This document shows, piece after piece, positions 1 through 5,521 of a stretch of 5,521 nt of DNA. The stretch is taken from positions 1-5,521 of the forward strand of contig DFIB01000041.1 in the NCBI GenBank assembly GCA_002371375.1, in the 5' to 3' direction. Under the pieces are notes generated by a model. It had not been told where the DNA came from. It worked only from the letters and a program-made list of their open reading frames with translations, and made no database searches. This DNA is from Mageeibacillus sp. UBA3708 (GTDB lineage: Bacteria > Bacillota > Clostridia > Saccharofermentanales > Saccharofermentanaceae). Positions within the stretch are counted from its first letter, which is position 1, and the number at the start of each line of letters is the position of its first letter. A program made the translations under genes and the position numbers.

Positions 1-1082
1 ACCATACCGACCATCAGCTTGGCCGTGTACTGGCCGCATCACTGAATCTGGATGTCATTGCGGTCGTCAGTCTGCGCAGCGACAAGGTAGTCAGATACGC
101 TTCCGAAGGCTTCACCGTCGAACCGGTGGATCTCTCTGATCTTTCCATCAGGGAAAAGGAAATCAATACAACGGAAGCGCTGATCCGGGGAACGGCAGCG
201 GGACTGGAGAAGCTGGGTTACAGAAGCGGCGGTTTTGACTGCTATGCGGAAAGTGATGTAATCCCCGGCGGCGGCATGTCCAGCAGCGCGGCATTTGAAG
301 TACTGCTCGGAACAATCATGAGTGAACTGTTCAATGACGGTAAGGTCAGCGCGGAGACAATTGCGAAAAACGGTCAGTATGCCGAAAACGTATATTTCGG
401 CAAACCGTGCGGACTGCTTGATCAGATGGCATGTTCAGTCGGAAGCTTTGCGGCAATTGATTTTGCGGATAAGGAAAACCCCGTTGTTGAAAAGATCGAT
501 TTCAATCCGGCAGACTACGGCTACAAGCTGATCCTGACCGATGTCAGAGCGAGCCATGCCGAACTGAGCGGTGAATACGGAGCGGTTCCGGCAGAGATGA
601 AGTGTGTTGCCAAAGTACTCGGTTATGAAGTTCTGTCTGAGACAAACGAAGCTGAACTGACAGCCAATGTCGGAAAGATCCGTGAGGCATGCGGTGACAG
701 AGCGTTCCTGCGCGCATATCATTTCGTCAAGGAGACCGAACGGGCAAAACTCCAGGCTGAAGCGCTGAAAAACAAGGATATCGATACATTCCTGAATCTG
801 ATCAAAGAATCCGGTCATTCTTCCTATATGTATCTTCAGAACATCAACGTTCCCGGTGCCATAAAGGATCAGCCGGTTGCGCTTGCGCTTGCGCTGAGTG
901 ATTCCGTTCTTGCGGGCAAAGGCGCGTACCGTGTTCACGGCGGCGGATTTGCCGGAACAATACAGGCTTTCGTTGACAACGGTGCCGTAATTGGTTATAA
1001 AGATAGTATGGACCACGTATTCGGTGAAGGTTCATGCAGTGTACTCAAGATACGCAGGTATGGTGGAATAAGGGTTGTTTGA
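1..1082 (+). CDS. galK: Galactokinase, 5' end outside window
   Basis: GHMP-family kinase that phosphorylates galactose with ATP to galactose-1-phosphate, the first committed step of the cytoplasmic Leloir pathway. The frame is open from the left edge (first full codon at base 3) and begins with HTDHQLGR, the downstream half of the galactokinase signature GNHTDHQ, so about 60-70 N-terminal residues, including the usual catalytic Arg region, are missing. The 359 visible residues contain the phosphate-binding loop PGGGMSSSAAFEV (about bases 264-302), the catalytic-Asp segment GLLDQMA (Asp codon 420-422) and the third GHMP motif RVHGGGFAG (about 933-956). The C-terminus (GEGSCSVLKIR) is complete, ending in TGA. 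Reading RVHGGGFAG rather than RMTGGGFGG is, as I recall, typical of the clostridial branch. It lies 21 bases upstream of galT in the same direction, so the two are almost certainly cotranscribed. No promoter is visible. Family assignment is near certain. Confidence 0.96.
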   Translation, partial: HTDHQLGRVLAASLNLDVIAVVSLRSDKVVRYASEGFTVEPVDLSDLSIREKEINTTEALIRGTAAGLEKLGYRSGGFDCYAESDVIPGGGMSSSAAFEVLLGTIMSELFNDGKVSAETIAKNGQYAENVYFGKPCGLLDQMACSVGSFAAIDFADKENPVVEKIDFNPADYGYKLILTDVRASHAELSGEYGAVPAEMKCVAKVLGYEVLSETNEAELTANVGKIREACGDRAFLRAYHFVKETERAKLQAEALKNKDIDTFLNLIKESGHSSYMYLQNINVPGAIKDQPVALALALSDSVLAGKGAYRVHGGGFAGTIQAFVDNGAVIGYKDSMDHVFGEGSCSVLKIRRYGGIRVV

Positions 1083-1103: not shown

Positions 1104-2600
1104 ATGATCGATTCATACATTACTGAGCTTGTTAACTATGCCATAGATTCCGGACTCATCTGCGAAGATGACCGCATTTATTCTGTCAACAGATTGCTTG
1201 AATTATTCGGACTTAATGATTACACGACGCCTGATGATGCGGCCGCACTCCCCGCGCGGCCTGTCGCGGAGATCTTAAAGGACATGACCGACTACGCGGC
1301 AGAGAAGGGGCTTCTGGAGTCAGATACGATAACTAACCGCGACCTGTTCGATACGAAGATAATGGGTCTTGTCACAGCACCGCCGTCAGAAGTAAGGCGA
1401 AGATTCTCAGAGCTTTATAATACTTCACCGGGAGCTGCAACCTCCTGGTATTACAGTTTTGCATCAAGTTCCAATTACATCCGTACGGACCGCACGGCCA
1501 GAGATGAGAGATGGCAGACTGATACAGAATACGGAACGCTTGATATCACCATTAATCTCAGCAAGCCGGAGAAGGATCCGCGCGATATTGCGGCTGCCGG
1601 CAAAGCAAAGAGATCCGGCTATCCGGCATGCCTTCTGTGCTGTGAGAATGAGGGGTACGCAGGTTCGATCAACCACCCTGCAAGACAGAATCACAGGGTC
1701 ATCCCGATCACTTTGGACGGCACAGATTATTTCCTGCAGTATTCGCCTTACATCTACTACAACGAGCACTGTATCGTATTCAACAGGAAGCATACGCCGA
1801 TGGTGATCGACAGGGCCGTATTCGGCAAACTCCTTGACTTTGTCAGACAATTCCCGCATTACATAATCGGGTCTAATGCGGACCTTCCTATCGTGGGCGG
1901 ATCGATATTGAGCCACGACCATTTCCAGGGGGGAAGATATGAATTTCCGATGGCAAGGGCACCCATCGAGAAGAAGATAGAATTCGAAGGCTATCCGCAG
2001 GTATCAGCCGGCATTGTCAGGTGGCCTCTGTCTGTCATCAGGCTTAACAGCGCCGACAAGGACGCGGTCGTTGACCTGTCTGATAAGATTCTTAAGAAAT
2101 GGCGTTCATATACTGATGAATCCGCCTTCATCCTCGCGGAGACTGACGGCATTCCACATAATACGATTACGCCTATCGCCAGAATGCGGGATGGTCATTA
2201 CGAACTGGATCTCGTACTTCGCAATAACATCACAACAGAGGAGTGTCCGCTCGGATATTATCACCCTCATTCGCAGTACCATCACATCAAGAAAGAGAAC
2301 ATCGGCCTGATCGAAGTCATGGGTCTTGCAGTCCTCCCTTCACGCCTCAAGAACGAACTGTCGATGCTGTCAGATGCAATACTCGAAGGCAGGAATCTCC
2401 GTGCTGAAGAGGCCCTCGCCAAGCACGCTGACTGGGCATACGGATGGATCGGGAATTACGACATAAACGCCGGCAATATCGGTGATATTATCCGGCGTGA
2501 GGTTGGAGTTGTTTTCGCGCATGTCCTTGAAGACGCAGGTGTGTACAAATGCGATGACAAGGGGCGCGCGGACTTCATGAGATTTATCGATTCCGTGTGA
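1104..2600 (+). CDS. galT: UDP-glucose--hexose-1-phosphate uridylyltransferase, class II
   Basis: Transfers UMP from UDP-glucose to galactose-1-phosphate, giving UDP-galactose and glucose-1-phosphate, the second Leloir-pathway reaction. At 498 residues it has the usual length of the Firmicutes-type (class II) enzyme, which is longer than the ~350-residue E. coli type. Characteristic blocks appear in order: YPACLLCCENEGYAGS (about 173-188), HPARQNHR (191-198), the His-rich block GGSILSHDHFQGG (265-277), and HPHSQYHHIKKENIGLIEV followed by MGLAVLPSRL (387-415). The start is the ATG at 1104, preceded by GGAGG at 1093-1097 with a 6-base gap. The HPHSQ string superficially resembles the class I catalytic HPHxQ motif, but it sits in the class II HPHxxxHHIKKENIGL block, so I do not read it as a class I active site. 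It follows galK by 21 bases. The last 17 bases overlap the end of the convergent phosphoesterase gene. Confidence 0.97.
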   Translation: MIDSYITELVNYAIDSGLICEDDRIYSVNRLLELFGLNDYTTPDDAAALPARPVAEILKDMTDYAAEKGLLESDTITNRDLFDTKIMGLVTAPPSEVRRRFSELYNTSPGAATSWYYSFASSSNYIRTDRTARDERWQTDTEYGTLDITINLSKPEKDPRDIAAAGKAKRSGYPACLLCCENEGYAGSINHPARQNHRVIPITLDGTDYFLQYSPYIYYNEHCIVFNRKHTPMVIDRAVFGKLLDFVRQFPHYIIGSNADLPIVGGSILSHDHFQGGRYEFPMARAPIEKKIEFEGYPQVSAGIVRWPLSVIRLNSADKDAVVDLSDKILKKWRSYTDESAFILAETDGIPHNTITPIARMRDGHYELDLVLRNNITTEECPLGYYHPHSQYHHIKKENIGLIEVMGLAVLPSRLKNELSMLSDAILEGRNLRAEEALAKHADWAYGWIGNYDINAGNIGDIIRREVGVVFAHVLEDAGVYKCDDKGRADFMRFIDSV

Positions 2601-2609
2601 TTATCTCAT
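2577..2609. repeat. Short inverted repeat at convergent gene ends
   Basis: ATGAGAT (2577-2583) and ATCTCAT (2603-2609) form a perfect 7-base inverted repeat whose 19-base loop covers the 17-base overlap between galT and the phosphoesterase gene. The stem is AT-rich and is not followed by a T-run on either strand, so it is not a standard intrinsic terminator. It may be chance, or a weak bidirectional transcript-end structure. Confidence 0.3.
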
Positions 2610-3105
2610 CGATCGTCCGGGGGGTGAATCCGAGGAGATCCGCTCCGACGTTGTACGCCTTCTCCAGCCCCTCCATGAACATGCAGGCCTCGTTCCTTGT
2701 TTTGTGGATATGCCCAAAAAAGTGGTAGAACCCGTCATAATAACCGGGCCATTCCGCCACGGGATAATGGCACAGGAATATTGTGTGTCCGTGATCCCTT
2801 ACGACCTCCATCTGCGATATGCTCACGAAGTATGACGATGCCTCCGGATCAGCAGTTATTATCTTGTCGTGGTTCCCGGCGATGAGGCGCTTGCGCCCCT
2901 TGAGCTGCTTCAGATAACCGGTGACCGGCTTCCCGGCTTTGTGACTGAAATCCCCGACGATATACACGTCGTCATTGTCATTAACAACGCTGTTCCAGTT
3001 CTCTATGATCACCCTGTCCATCTCCTCCGCATCCGCGAAAGGACGGCCGCACAATTTGATTATATTCTCATGCCCGAAATGCGTATCAGCTATATAGTAC
3101 TTCAT
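2584..3105 (-). CDS. Calcineurin-like metallophosphoesterase (COG4186-like)
   Basis: A 173-residue single-domain, probably cytoplasmic, dinuclear-metal phosphoesterase. The metal-binding motifs are all present and in order: DTH (D7, H9), GDF (D52), GNHD (77-80), CHYP (H113) and GHIH (131-134). The NVGAD near the C-terminus (152-156) and the EWPGYYDG stretch after HYP match, as I recall, the compact phosphoesterase group COG4186, whose physiological substrate is unknown. No signal peptide or membrane segment is visible. Its ATG overlaps the stop of the upstream sigma-factor gene as ATGA (3102-3105). No well-placed ribosome binding site precedes it: the nearest purine run, AGGGAG (3120-3125), is 14 bases from the start. 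Translation is therefore probably coupled to the sigma-factor gene. The 3' end runs 17 bases into galT on the opposite strand. The fold is very secure, but the substrate cannot be told from sequence. Confidence 0.93.
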   Translation of the reverse strand: MKYYIADTHFGHENIIKLCGRPFADAEEMDRVIIENWNSVVNDNDDVYIVGDFSHKAGKPVTGYLKQLKGRKRLIAGNHDKIITADPEASSYFVSISQMEVVRDHGHTIFLCHYPVAEWPGYYDGFYHFFGHIHKTRNEACMFMEGLEKAYNVGADLLGFTPRTIDEIITRNR

Positions 3106-5162
3106 CTTACCAGCTTGATCTCCCTCTCATAATAATCAGCTCCGCCTGCACCTGTTATCTCACCGATAAAACTTATATCCCCGTTGGCGTCATAGTACGG
3201 TATCGCGGCCTTGACGGCCTCATCCCTGAGGTTATATTCATAAGGTTTGAACCCGGCCATATCTGTCTGGTAATACTGCTTGCCTTCCGAGTCCATATAT
3301 TGCTTGACCGAGTCATATACAGCCTTATCGAATCCGTCTTTGCTCATGCCGTTTACTTCAATGAACTCATCCTTGGTCAGGATGTGGCCGTCCTCCAGCG
3401 AGATATTGTAAACAGCATAAGAATCACCATCAATATCATCGAGATACACCACGACCAGACTCAGAATGCTGTCACCTATGAAGTACTTATAATCCGTTCC
3501 TCCCAGGTACTGTGCCTCCTCGTTATACGACGCGGCACACCCGCTGATATCCTTGCGGATCTCCGAATTGAATCCCGACATATCGACGCCGTCGATCACC
3601 ACCTCAGGGATCTTGTATTCGCATCCGCCCGCCTTTACCGTCTCTGCAAGCCTTACCTCTGCCGCCTTCTCCTCTGCAGCGGGTCCGGAGCCACCGACAA
3701 CATATTCCTTGCTGTCCCTGGACAGGATAAAGCTTGGCTCATCGCTCGTAACCGTTACAGTCACAACATCACCCTCACTGAGGAGTGAACACTTATCAAG
3801 TTTGTATGTAACACTTCCGCCGGGATTATACGGAAGTCCCAGCGATTCGACTCTCGCCGTGATCTTAGGCGACTGCCCCTCAAAAACAACCCTTACATAA
3901 TCGAAAGGATCGATCACCTCTTTATCCTTCAATCCGTCAACCTTGTACACGATATCCTTCAGTTCAAACTCAACATTATTCTCTTCCTCGACAGCCTTGA
4001 TCTCCTCAGCTTTATACCACTTAAAGACTATCTCTTCGCCGTTCGCAAGCAGCTCACGCTTGTTCCAGCTGCCGCCGATCATCTTCTGCAGCTCCGCACG
4101 GCTCACACTGCCAAGTTCAGGATAATCCTGCTTCATTCTGTCGTAATCCAGCGAATAATCAAGTATACCGCGCGGACTGTATCCGTTAACAGAATAAGTA
4201 ACATAATCGCTGACCGGTATCACCTTAGGCTCAGTTTTCTTGTCGCTTCCGAAGATCAGCAATCCGCCGACGATCGCCGAGCCCGTCAGAGCCAATGCCA
4301 GTGCGCCCGTTATCACCTTGCCGGATGTCGTAGACAGGAACCCGGACTTGGCAGGCTTCATCCTGCCGGCGGATTTGGCGGTTTTGGAGGCGGTGTTTGC
4401 TGCGCCTGCAGCGGCGCCGCCTGCTGCAGCATTAGTTACGGCATTTGCGGCACCCTGAGCGGCGCCGGCCGTGAGATCGATCCCCGCTTTCAAAGCGGGA
4501 ACGGCCAGCATCGGCTGCGGTATGCTGATCTTTGCCATCTGCGAATTAAAGAGCCTCGTGAAGAAAGGTGCCGCCGCCAGCACGAGCTTGTTCTCATCAA
4601 CATAAGAACCGAGCGCACTCTTGAACTTGTTGCGCGCCGACATTAGCCTCGTCTTCACCGTCCCCTCGGAACAGTCCATCGCCCTTGCGATCTCGGAGAT
4701 CTTCATGTCATCATAATAGTGCATAAACAGCGTCTGATACTGGACAGCCGACAGCGACTCACGCAAAACCTTATTGATAATGTCCGCCTTTTCCTTCTCC
4801 TCGATGAAAGAGTCCGGCAGCATGTCAACTTCCTCCCAATCCTCTGCCAGCGCATCCAGCTCTGCATCACTGTCGCTGAACACAACATTTCTTCTCTTCC
4901 TGTAGAAATCAATCGACTTCAGAGATGCGATCCTCACCATCCACGCCGAATACGCCTCGGGCGACTCCAGCTTATCCAGCGACTGATACACCGCCAGATA
5001 CACCTCCTGCGTCACATCCTCGGCATCCTCCGCCGAGTTCAGATGCCCGTAGCAAGTCGAGTAGACCAGCCTGTACGTCTCCTTATAAAACTCATCGAAA
5101 ACATCCCTCTCTCCGGCCTGGAACTTCCTGATCAATCCGATTACGTTTTCTTTGTCTGCCAT
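3102..5162 (-). CDS. Membrane-anchored ECF sigma factor with C-terminal extracytoplasmic domain
   Basis: A ~686-residue protein, far longer than a normal ECF sigma factor (~180-200). Sigma region 2 lies at about residues 17-88 (includes AEDAEDVTQEVYLAVYQSL and the DFYRKRR end). Sigma region 4 lies at about 125-183, with the helix-turn-helix KISEIARAMDCSEGTVKTRL. Next come a hydrophobic stretch (LVLAAAPFFTRLF, ~193-205), an Ala/Gly-rich linker (15 Ala in 27 residues, ~232-258), a Lys/Arg-rich stretch and one transmembrane helix (~282-304). The positive charge before the helix puts the sigma part in the cytoplasm and the last ~380 residues outside. The outer part shows two similar beta-rich modules (beginning VSDYVTYSVNGYSP ~317 and FDYVRVVFEGQSP ~420). 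A C-terminal domain (~502-686, with KIPEVVIDG and YNISLEDGHILTKDEF) resembles RsiV-like DUF4163/DUF3298 sensors, which I assign only tentatively. I infer that the sigma domain is held at the membrane until released or activated. The ATG at 5162 is chosen because GGAGG lies 8 bases upstream. Earlier in-frame TTG (5183) and ATG (5177) lack a ribosome site and sit at or near the predicted transcript start. Its stop overlaps the phosphoesterase start. Confidence 0.92.
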   Translation of the reverse strand: MADKENVIGLIRKFQAGERDVFDEFYKETYRLVYSTCYGHLNSAEDAEDVTQEVYLAVYQSLDKLESPEAYSAWMVRIASLKSIDFYRKRRNVVFSDSDAELDALAEDWEEVDMLPDSFIEEKEKADIINKVLRESLSAVQYQTLFMHYYDDMKISEIARAMDCSEGTVKTRLMSARNKFKSALGSYVDENKLVLAAAPFFTRLFNSQMAKISIPQPMLAVPALKAGIDLTAGAAQGAANAVTNAAAGGAAAGAANTASKTAKSAGRMKPAKSGFLSTTSGKVITGALALALTGSAIVGGLLIFGSDKKTEPKVIPVSDYVTYSVNGYSPRGILDYSLDYDRMKQDYPELGSVSRAELQKMIGGSWNKRELLANGEEIVFKWYKAEEIKAVEEENNVEFELKDIVYKVDGLKDKEVIDPFDYVRVVFEGQSPKITARVESLGLPYNPGGSVTYKLDKCSLLSEGDVVTVTVTSDEPSFILSRDSKEYVVGGSGPAAEEKAAEVRLAETVKAGGCEYKIPEVVIDGVDMSGFNSEIRKDISGCAASYNEEAQYLGGTDYKYFIGDSILSLVVVYLDDIDGDSYAVYNISLEDGHILTKDEFIEVNGMSKDGFDKAVYDSVKQYMDSEGKQYYQTDMAGFKPYEYNLRDEAVKAAIPYYDANGDISFIGEITGAGGADYYEREIKLVR

Positions 5163-5188: not shown

Positions 5189-5197
5189 ATTATACCA
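5189..5197 (-). promoter_or_regulatory. Extended -10 promoter for the sigma-factor operon
   Basis: The minus strand reads TGGTATAAT, a perfect TATAAT hexamer with the TGn extension. The hexamer at the expected 17-base distance (5212-5217, CAATCC) is a poor -35 match, which extended -10 promoters tolerate. Transcription would begin near 5182, giving a leader of about 20 bases that includes the GGAGG site. Confidence 0.65.
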
Positions 5198-5201
5198 ATT
5201 A

Positions 5202-5227
5202 GTCGCAGACAGGATTGATTTGGTTCA
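5202..5227 (-). promoter_or_regulatory. Possible ECF-type promoter (autoregulation)
   Basis: The minus strand reads TGAACC (5227-5222), 16 bases, then CGAC (5205-5202). Bacillus ECF sigma factors recognise TGAAAC-like -35 elements 16-17 bases from CGTC, CGTA or CGAC -10 elements, and often transcribe their own genes. The match, spacing and location immediately upstream of an ECF sigma gene make autoregulation plausible. The motif is short, so chance is not excluded. Confidence 0.4.
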
Positions 5228-5430
5228 TTGTTGGAAGGATATTTTTTGAGAATGTCGAAAAAGTGGTCATATAGTATCTTTTGAACACGTCCGGATGGGG
5301 TGAACGCAGCGTTTTGGTACCGGTTATTTGAATATCCATAATCCCCCATATAATCATGATTCTGTGAGTGGCATTAACCTCAGTTGACAGTATGGAATAG
5401 ACGCAGCAATCTGAATTCGCATGACCCACA

Positions 5431-5521
5431 CCGTTTCCGCAGAAAAACGGCATCTCTTCCGCAGAAAATGCGGAAAAAATCTTAAATCTCGCGGATTCCG
5501 CAAGAATCAGAAATCTTTCCG
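5431..5521. repeat. Cluster of TTCCGCA repeats in both orientations
   Basis: TTCCGCA occurs at 5435-5441, 5457-5463 and 5496-5502. A further TTCCG at 5517-5521 is cut by the window edge, and an inverted copy TGCGGAA lies at 5469-5475. The first two copies share the longer unit TTCCGCAGAAAA and begin 22 bases apart; the third and fourth begin 21 bases apart. The third copy is also part of the small palindrome GCGGATTCCGC (5491-5501). The first sits in the loop side of CCGTTT/AAACGG (5431-5436 with 5445-5450). This could be a regulator-binding array or part of an element that continues beyond the window. Confidence 0.6.
5457..5475. repeat. Hairpin TTCCGCA-GAAAA-TGCGGAA
   Basis: A perfect 7-base stem with a 5-base loop, formed by two oppositely oriented members of the TTCCGCA cluster. 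On the plus strand it is followed by an A-run. On the minus strand the T-run comes before, not after, the stem. It therefore does not look like an intrinsic terminator in either direction. Confidence 0.5.

Follow-up and report, generated by a model that had tools for sequence, protein, structure and literature searches.

The 5,521-nucleotide stretch of DNA from Mageeibacillus sp. UBA3708 analyzed here (hereafter the window; GenBank assembly GCA_002371375.1, contig DFIB01000041.1) carries on its minus strand, at 3102..5162, a gene for a protein of 686 amino acids in which an extracytoplasmic function (ECF) sigma factor, a linker, a predicted membrane helix and a large outer part follow each other, as assigned from the open reading frame (ORF), Pfam matches and hydropathy. 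ECF signalling across the membrane usually involves two proteins, a sigma factor and a membrane-bound anti-sigma factor. The single chain found here would combine ECF sigma factor, membrane anchor and receptor, and we regard it as somewhat more probable than the contrary that the sigma part is set free by proteolysis upon an outer signal. Sequence comparison establishes the domain order, the intact sigma motifs, a family of paralogues, the exchangeable modules and a promoter motif at four of six paralogues. The window comprises one entire contig of a source genome of 2.4 Mb that is 86% complete, and the ORF extends from an ATG at 5162, preceded by a GGAGG ribosome site, to a stop at 3104-3102.

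The sigma part has the fold as well as the core- and DNA-binding motifs of a working ECF (group 4) sigma factor and would be expected to bind core polymerase and start transcription. Region 2 (residues 26-91; 4890..5087, minus strand as are all features of this gene) matched PF04542 (Sigma70_r2) with an E value of 1.1e-14 and region 4 (residues 136-179; 4626..4757) matched PF08281 (Sigma70_r4_2) with 5.7e-10, both exceeding the Pfam cut-offs, while the ECF family TIGR02937 matched above its cut-off with 5.9e-27 and, among relatives of solved structure, SigW of B. subtilis came closest (residues 11-182, E 1.3e-16). The regions 2 and 4 recognized in the initial annotation are thus confirmed. Moreover, GTVKTRLMSAR, the recognition motif of region 4, and its counterpart DAEDVTQEVYLAVY in region 2 are both intact, and D46, D49, Q52, W74, G167, T168, K170 and R172 are among the positions kept in all 11 aligned proteins. 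A loss of core- or DNA-binding residues, which had been considered as the outcome that would overturn the assignment, is therefore not observed.

About 500 residues, including the membrane helix, lie behind region 4. They include a conserved hydrophobic segment (residues 190-215, ENKLVLAAAPFFTRLFNSQMAKISIP; 4518..4595), which was recognized in alignments and is modelled with low confidence; its family form, like DNKLVLAAxPFLTRFF...IP, is conserved in the alignment of the paralogues. The adjoining Ala/Gly-rich linker (residues 216-282; 4317..4517), delimited by alignment and composition, ends in the conserved sequence GFLSTxxGK, and residues 185-286 contain 25 Ala and 11 Gly among 102 positions. 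It is followed by the single hydrophobic segment of the protein at about residues 283-305 (4248..4316), a predicted helix rich in Gly, Ala and Ser with a best 19-residue Kyte-Doolittle mean of 2.06. Because the flank on the N-terminal side of this helix carries a net charge of +2, the sigma part is predicted to be cytoplasmic and the last 381 residues to be outside. The linker, the one helix with its positive flank and the approximately 380 outer residues that had been described before were all seen again, with the topology judged from hydropathy only.

The outer part probably consists of two beta modules of FN3/Ig-like type (residues 313-492; 3687..4226), assigned by weak fold matches, and a terminal domain with predicted RsiV fold, i.e. 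DUF4163+DUF3298-like (residues 500-686; 3105..3665), which is likewise predicted to be outside. The identity of the terminal domain came from the fold search alone. Its predicted fold matches RsiV (PDB 5JEN), the anti-sigma factor and lysozyme receptor of sigma-V in B. subtilis, with 9% identity over the structural match. The same search found 3CYG, 4E72, 3S5T and 2HHI, and these four entries are named as structural neighbours of RsiV in the covered portion of the paper on its crystal structure (PMC5014341). A relation of the outer part to RsiV, DUF3298 and DUF4163, as suggested at the outset, was hence upheld at the level of the predicted fold, but not at the level of sequence profiles.

The fusion is not a singular case in the source genome. 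A search with PF04542 identified nine sigma frames. One is a housekeeping-type fragment that lies at the end of a contig and two are short ECF genes; the six others are long fusions (the window gene, C28, C137, C148 and two in tandem on C155). The aligned paralogues have a common sigma part and linkers of very different length, and the GFLSTxxGK sequence before the helix is mostly conserved. Beta modules and an RsiV-like domain form the outer parts of the window protein, C28 and C137; both C155 copies bear DUF6273 domains and C148 has DUF6273 followed by an RsiV-like domain. DUF6273 matched 5 of the 11 proteins of set A1. A third copy on C155 (L012:4983-6533, G000:C155) has lost the sigma domain in frame and kept the start, the linker, the helix, DUF6273 and the promoter motif. 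As a side observation, the gene upstream of the paralogue C137 (L011:1294-3294) has a product of 667 aa that contains a TIR domain and matches TPR weakly.

Homologues with the same order of domains were collected as well. Of the 109 database relatives in which the region-4 motif was located, 107 have a membrane segment that follows this motif at a distance of over 45 residues; exactly one membrane segment is present in 105 and a net positive N-terminal flank in 103. Many of the 109 are near-identical, and they form 48 groups at less than 80% ungapped identity over the first 190 residues. In the fetched loci, all 48 non-identical fusions have a membrane segment at 190-560. Relatives with names come from Saccharofermentans sp., 'Ruminococcaceae', Clostridiales and Clostridia assemblies, and several sample names refer to rumen, omasum, reticulum or horse faeces. 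Among 80 of 181 confirmed public loci, the first 14 were relatives of the window type and the other 66, nearly all from other phyla, matched within or near the sigma part only. Within the genus, 14 genomes were compared, the source genome together with 13 others at least 90% complete. They contained 111 region-2 matches, 97 of them not of the housekeeping type, and 22 of these 97 (one below the cut-off), across 11 of the 14 genomes, lie in frames of at least 430 aa, which were counted by their length. Short sigma frames with one in-frame TAA each were seen in G018:C125, G056:C50 and G039:C26. Besides sigma, the database relatives carry precomputed Pfam accessions for DUF6273, LRR, RCC1, PQQ, RHS, Big_2 and lipase domains, several of which we take to bear these names from their accession numbers.

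The upstream regions of the paralogues share the motif TGAAC, 17-19 bases, GTCnTA, (A/T)(A/G)G. The pattern TGAAC-15..18-[CT]GTC was present in the 150 bases upstream of 9 of the 48 non-identical fusions, which include the own-genome members that had suggested the pattern, while in 200 dinucleotide shuffles it occurred 0.145 times on average and at most twice. In the entire source genome, TGAAC-N17..19-GTCnTAwrG had 11 matches compared to one for the reversed pattern: four precede sigma fusions (C28, C148 and twice C155), one precedes the sigma-less copy, and five of the six others are followed, after 29-83 bases, by an ORF that has an export signal. These putative targets encode a CHAP/ricin-lectin protein (L142), a protein that by eye looks CAP-like and has cell-wall repeats (L143), a lipoprotein followed by a lipoprotein gene that by eye looks DUF6273-like (L145) and two more secreted proteins (L146, L152); at L142 and L145 the open frame reaches far enough upstream to include the motif as well, and the start codon that has a ribosome site was used. 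The L151 match precedes an 86-aa ORF and then a secreted protein with cell-wall-type repeats.

When 59 genomes were compared, an excess of the motif was found only where close-type fusions exist, with 41 matches versus 17 for the reversed pattern in 15 genomes and 28 versus 50 in the other 44 (Mann-Whitney p 0.003 for the match counts; the group of 15 was defined by a best_E of 1e-39 or lower, a cut-off chosen after the tables were seen). Without the own genome, 30 versus 16 matches remained in the fusion group. Seven fusion-rich genomes, picked after the motif counts were seen, had 32 distinct matches: 12 of them stand before an export-signal ORF, 5 before a sigma fusion and 4 before some other ORF, and the remaining 11 precede no ORF. 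The 32 distinct matches in the other genomes gave 1, 0, 11 and 20, respectively. The difference in export-signal ORFs (12/32 versus 1/32) has a Fisher p of 6e-4, with the doubtful 86-aa ORF of L151 among the 12; the set of other genomes holds G011, G028 and G033, which also have close fusions, and its sole export case is in G011. For this comparison the 69 matches were scored without G035:C68 and G022:C23, which both precede fusions, and G039:C7, which repeats a scored one, and identical sequences were counted once. It is therefore predicted from these patterns that the motif, the fusions and the genes for exported proteins form a self-regulated envelope regulon. A second type of fusion in the genus starts like MTEKELEKIYNEAYRAVYW, and CGAAC-N18-GTCTATAG or variants precede many of its genes. 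A genome-wide regulon of this second type found no support, as the reversed control outnumbered the 22 matches of CGAAC...GTCTATAR in 59 genomes; because 6 of the 22 lie, by their coordinates, directly before sigma-fusion genes, self-regulation only is suggested.

Taken together, activation could proceed as follows. At rest, the sigma part would be held at the membrane and perhaps be masked in addition by the PFLTRFF...IP segment behind region 4. Binding of a ligand or a cell-wall change by the outer module might expose the chain to a first cut, and the M50 site-2 protease of the source genome, which was identified with an E value of 6e-56, could then cut within the Gly/Ala/Ser-rich membrane helix. 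The freed sigma factor would activate genes of its own family as well as genes for exported proteins. The source genome also contains four signal peptidase matches, three of them above the cut-off. RsiV is cut by signal peptidase upon binding of lysozyme and then by RasP, according to the covered portion of the structural paper (PMC5014341). By eye, no AxA-type signal peptidase site was found directly behind the helix of the window protein; therefore, its first cut may differ from that of RsiV.

This missing site is one of several points that weigh against the proteolytic reading, in which the role as its own anti-sigma factor, the cleavage, the ligand binding and the inhibition of the window protein are all inferred. 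In the model of the N-terminal part, the segment behind region 4 has a low pLDDT of about 57, and the model speaks neither for nor against a masking of sigma, so that autoinhibition by this segment is no more than a possibility. The sequence routes to the identity of the outer domain gave nothing useful: Pfam and NCBIfam, applied to 13 homologous domains, yielded DUF3298/DUF4163 Pfam matches in none of the 13, PF11738 had no match in the genome of the window, and a search of PDB profiles with the outer domain did not retrieve RsiV, the best hit being unrelated with an E value of 0.094. The motif was defined after inspection of the paralogue upstream regions, and the choice of the seven genomes was likewise retrospective. 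The two remaining paralogues have weak sites. For C137, 122 of 300 shuffles were as good, and before the window gene a weak promoter-like site of ECF type, TGAACC-N17-GACTAATTG (5196..5227, minus strand), has TGAACC and the right spacing, but GAC instead of GTC. Since 107 of 1000 shuffles of the upstream region score as high, the window gene is unsupported as a strong target of the family motif. An extended -10-like element of the housekeeping type, TGGTATAAT (5189..5197, minus strand), was noted by eye and overlaps the end of the ECF-type site; it is absent from the list of the promoter scan, which requires a -35 as well.

The main rival of proteolytic release is that the sigma part acts while tethered. 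It would recruit RNA polymerase at the membrane, so that exported targets are transcribed and exported together, and the outer part would act as its switch, either through dimerisation or by shifting the segment that follows region 4. The distance between region-4 motif and helix, 50 to 174 residues in the 107 relatives, could allow the sigma part to reach the core polymerase, and the predicted motif targets look exported, as this explanation would have it. However, IutY, the only sigma-membrane fusion that the covered portion of a review of non-canonical ECF factors calls experimentally characterised in this respect, is activated by proteolysis (PMC8999054), and we regard activity in the tethered state as rather unlikely.

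The same modules occur without sigma, hence the outer modules look like exchangeable surface modules. RsiV-like domains were recognized by sequence reading in lipoprotein-like or other proteins with export signals (L127, L128, L129, L138, L139, L140), in L138 together with PASTA-like repeats, and the FN3-like pair in lipoprotein-like proteins (L130, L131). Furthermore, L133 holds a gene for a zinc-ribbon sigma fusion beside one for a zinc-ribbon membrane protein that lacks sigma (L133:2195-3502 beside L133:214-2109). The latter protein carries a beta module, an RsiV-like domain and the same juxtamembrane motif, such that the cytoplasmic module, too, seems exchangeable. These proteins (L127-L131, L138-L140 and L133), together with the tandem copy that lacks sigma yet follows the same promoter motif (L012:4983-6533), would fit an explanation in which the gene chiefly serves to make the outer part, as a surface binding protein; the fused sigma factor would then do no more than link the amount of this protein to its own expression, and there would be little sensing. 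Nevertheless, the sigma motifs are intact across the aligned family and the promoter motif also precedes genes for other exported proteins, which makes this explanation improbable. An inactive or vestigial sigma domain in the window protein, as might be concluded from the degenerate site upstream of the gene and from the one tandem copy that lost its sigma domain, is very improbable given the conserved core- and DNA-binding motifs and the existence of full-length relatives at 56-97% identity.

In favour of a self-contained chain, no recurrent partner gene was seen near the fusions among the first 25 of 71 families listed. The commonest Pfam match there, a zinc ribbon, occurred in 3 of 49 same-strand neighbours of 43 fusions (of 57 distinct neighbours, 49 entered the count; sigma fusions, the sigma-less copy, a protein of 1223 aa and a frame of 84 aa made up the others). 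A conserved anti-sigma neighbour was likewise not recurrent among these 25 families; many loci end before the neighbours, and single cases are possible. By contrast, both short ECF genes of the source genome (L014, L015) share an overlap with a neighbouring gene, the product of which has, by eye, a single hydrophobic stretch at its N-terminus.

Some relatives of the fusion have an additional putative short gene. Ten of 48 fusions (L049, L050, L023, L028, L053, L131, L027, L019, L031, L058) are accompanied by a small ORF, 37-53 codons long, that either overlaps the sigma start, as in five cases, or ends no more than 160 bases before it; four of the ten use GTG or TTG as start. These micro-ORFs encode a segment like FLTRFFxAVAEDxxIP, often with an acidic tail. 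Such a motif was found in the 300 bases upstream plus 30 into the gene for 10 of 48 fusions, while 100 shuffles gave a mean of 0.01 and a maximum of 1 and the other strand none. Seven of the ten fusions behind micro-ORFs keep the motif in cis, and it is degenerate in L019, L031 and L058. The two copies most alike differ by 4 synonymous and 5 non-synonymous codon changes, a number too small for proof that the ORF is coding. Because the copy in trans mirrors the segment in cis, it is suggested that the micro-protein competes with the latter for one binding site. This has no direct bearing on the window gene. None of the six fusions of its genome is preceded by a micro-ORF, and the two exact FLTRFF matches in this genome are both in cis.

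Fusion of a sigma factor with a membrane part is as a kind already known, because the review mentioned above names, in its covered portion, such fusions in ECF48, ECF52 and ECF53 of Actinobacteria in addition to IutY (ECF243), and N-terminal helices in some ECF36 (PMC8999054). Like the window protein, SCO4117 and the groups ECF52/53/48 have an ECF sigma factor with a C-terminal membrane helix and expected proteolytic activation, and one or two helices are described behind sigma, where the window protein has one predicted helix; SCO4117 also possesses an outer binding domain (PMC8999054). However, its outer domain is carbohydrate-binding, whereas that of the window protein ends in a predicted RsiV fold, and ECF52/53/48 are described with a zinc-finger domain, whereas the Pfam scan of the window protein has no zinc-finger match and residues 165-457 contain no Cys. 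IutY of Pseudomonas putida, a sigma factor fused to a membrane anti-sigma part and the one among these fusions with demonstrated proteolytic activation (PMC8999054), also unites sigma and membrane part in one chain. It serves iron cell-surface signalling and answers aerobactin, and no such domain appeared in the Pfam scan of the window protein. The one Bacillus example in the covered passages of the review, ECF115, has a C-terminal extension of about 70 residues (PMC8999054), compared to about 500 residues behind region 4 here. The term 'Firmicutes' does not occur in this review (PMC8999054). RsiV itself resembles the window protein in the single membrane helix before the receptor domain, the cytoplasmic N-terminus and the ECF sigma context, but it is separate from its sigma factor, whereas the cytoplasmic N-terminus of the window protein is the sigma factor and two FN3/Ig-like modules precede the receptor domain there. 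SigI and RsgI of C. thermocellum are separate proteins, unlike the window fusion. As the fusions may do, the C. thermocellum system provides a set of clostridial membrane sensors for different substrates; in the covered sources, these sensors control cellulosome genes and RseP cuts RsgI in its membrane helix. Among the papers listed in our literature search, which did not cover the 2021 ECF re-classification, there was no report of an RsiV-type sigma fusion or of such fusions in Clostridia, and nothing relevant on DUF6273 with a sigma factor or on membrane-tethered sigma factors. What is new, as far as the literature found goes, is the presence of a receptor with predicted RsiV fold in a sigma chain, the extent to which such fusions have spread and exchanged modules in Clostridia, and the predicted regulon.

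Regarding the remaining window, the fusion gene is followed by a gene for a calcineurin-like phosphoesterase (2584..3105, minus strand; PF12850, E 2.6e-5, slightly below the family cut-off), the start of which overlaps the stop of the sigma fusion (ATGA), an overlap also present in the close relative L018. The earlier statement that no anti-sigma gene is visible in the operon is thus correct. Genes for a galactokinase-like protein (3-1082, plus strand) and a galactose-1-phosphate uridylyltransferase (1104-2600, plus strand), both assigned by Pfam, are convergent to the sigma operon and ordinary. Several inverted CCGCA/TGCGG repeats lie upstream of the fusion gene (5400-5521), one of which was identified in the promoter/terminator scan as a terminator-like stem of 12 pairs (5480-5452, minus strand). 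No match to Rfam was obtained at gathering scores.

More generally, we tentatively propose, with slightly less than even confidence, that gut Clostridia possess a hitherto unrecognised class of modular, one-component sigma factors that span the membrane. In this class, a self-regulated sigma factor would be anchored to a receptor that is freely exchanged (RsiV fold, DUF6273, LRR, RCC1, PQQ, RHS, Big_2 and others), its release would switch on exported proteins with like surface modules, and in some members an upstream micro-protein would compete in trans with the PFLTRFF...IP segment. The RsiV fold fused to sigma suggests how anti-sigma receptors and sigma factors join or split in evolution. 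The predicted promoter and regulon make the proposal testable, and swaps of outer domains on one sigma factor could report signals of uncultured gut Clostridia. If it holds true, sensor and sigma factor would be one gene, which is multiplied in the genome and refitted with different outer modules, much like one-component receptors.

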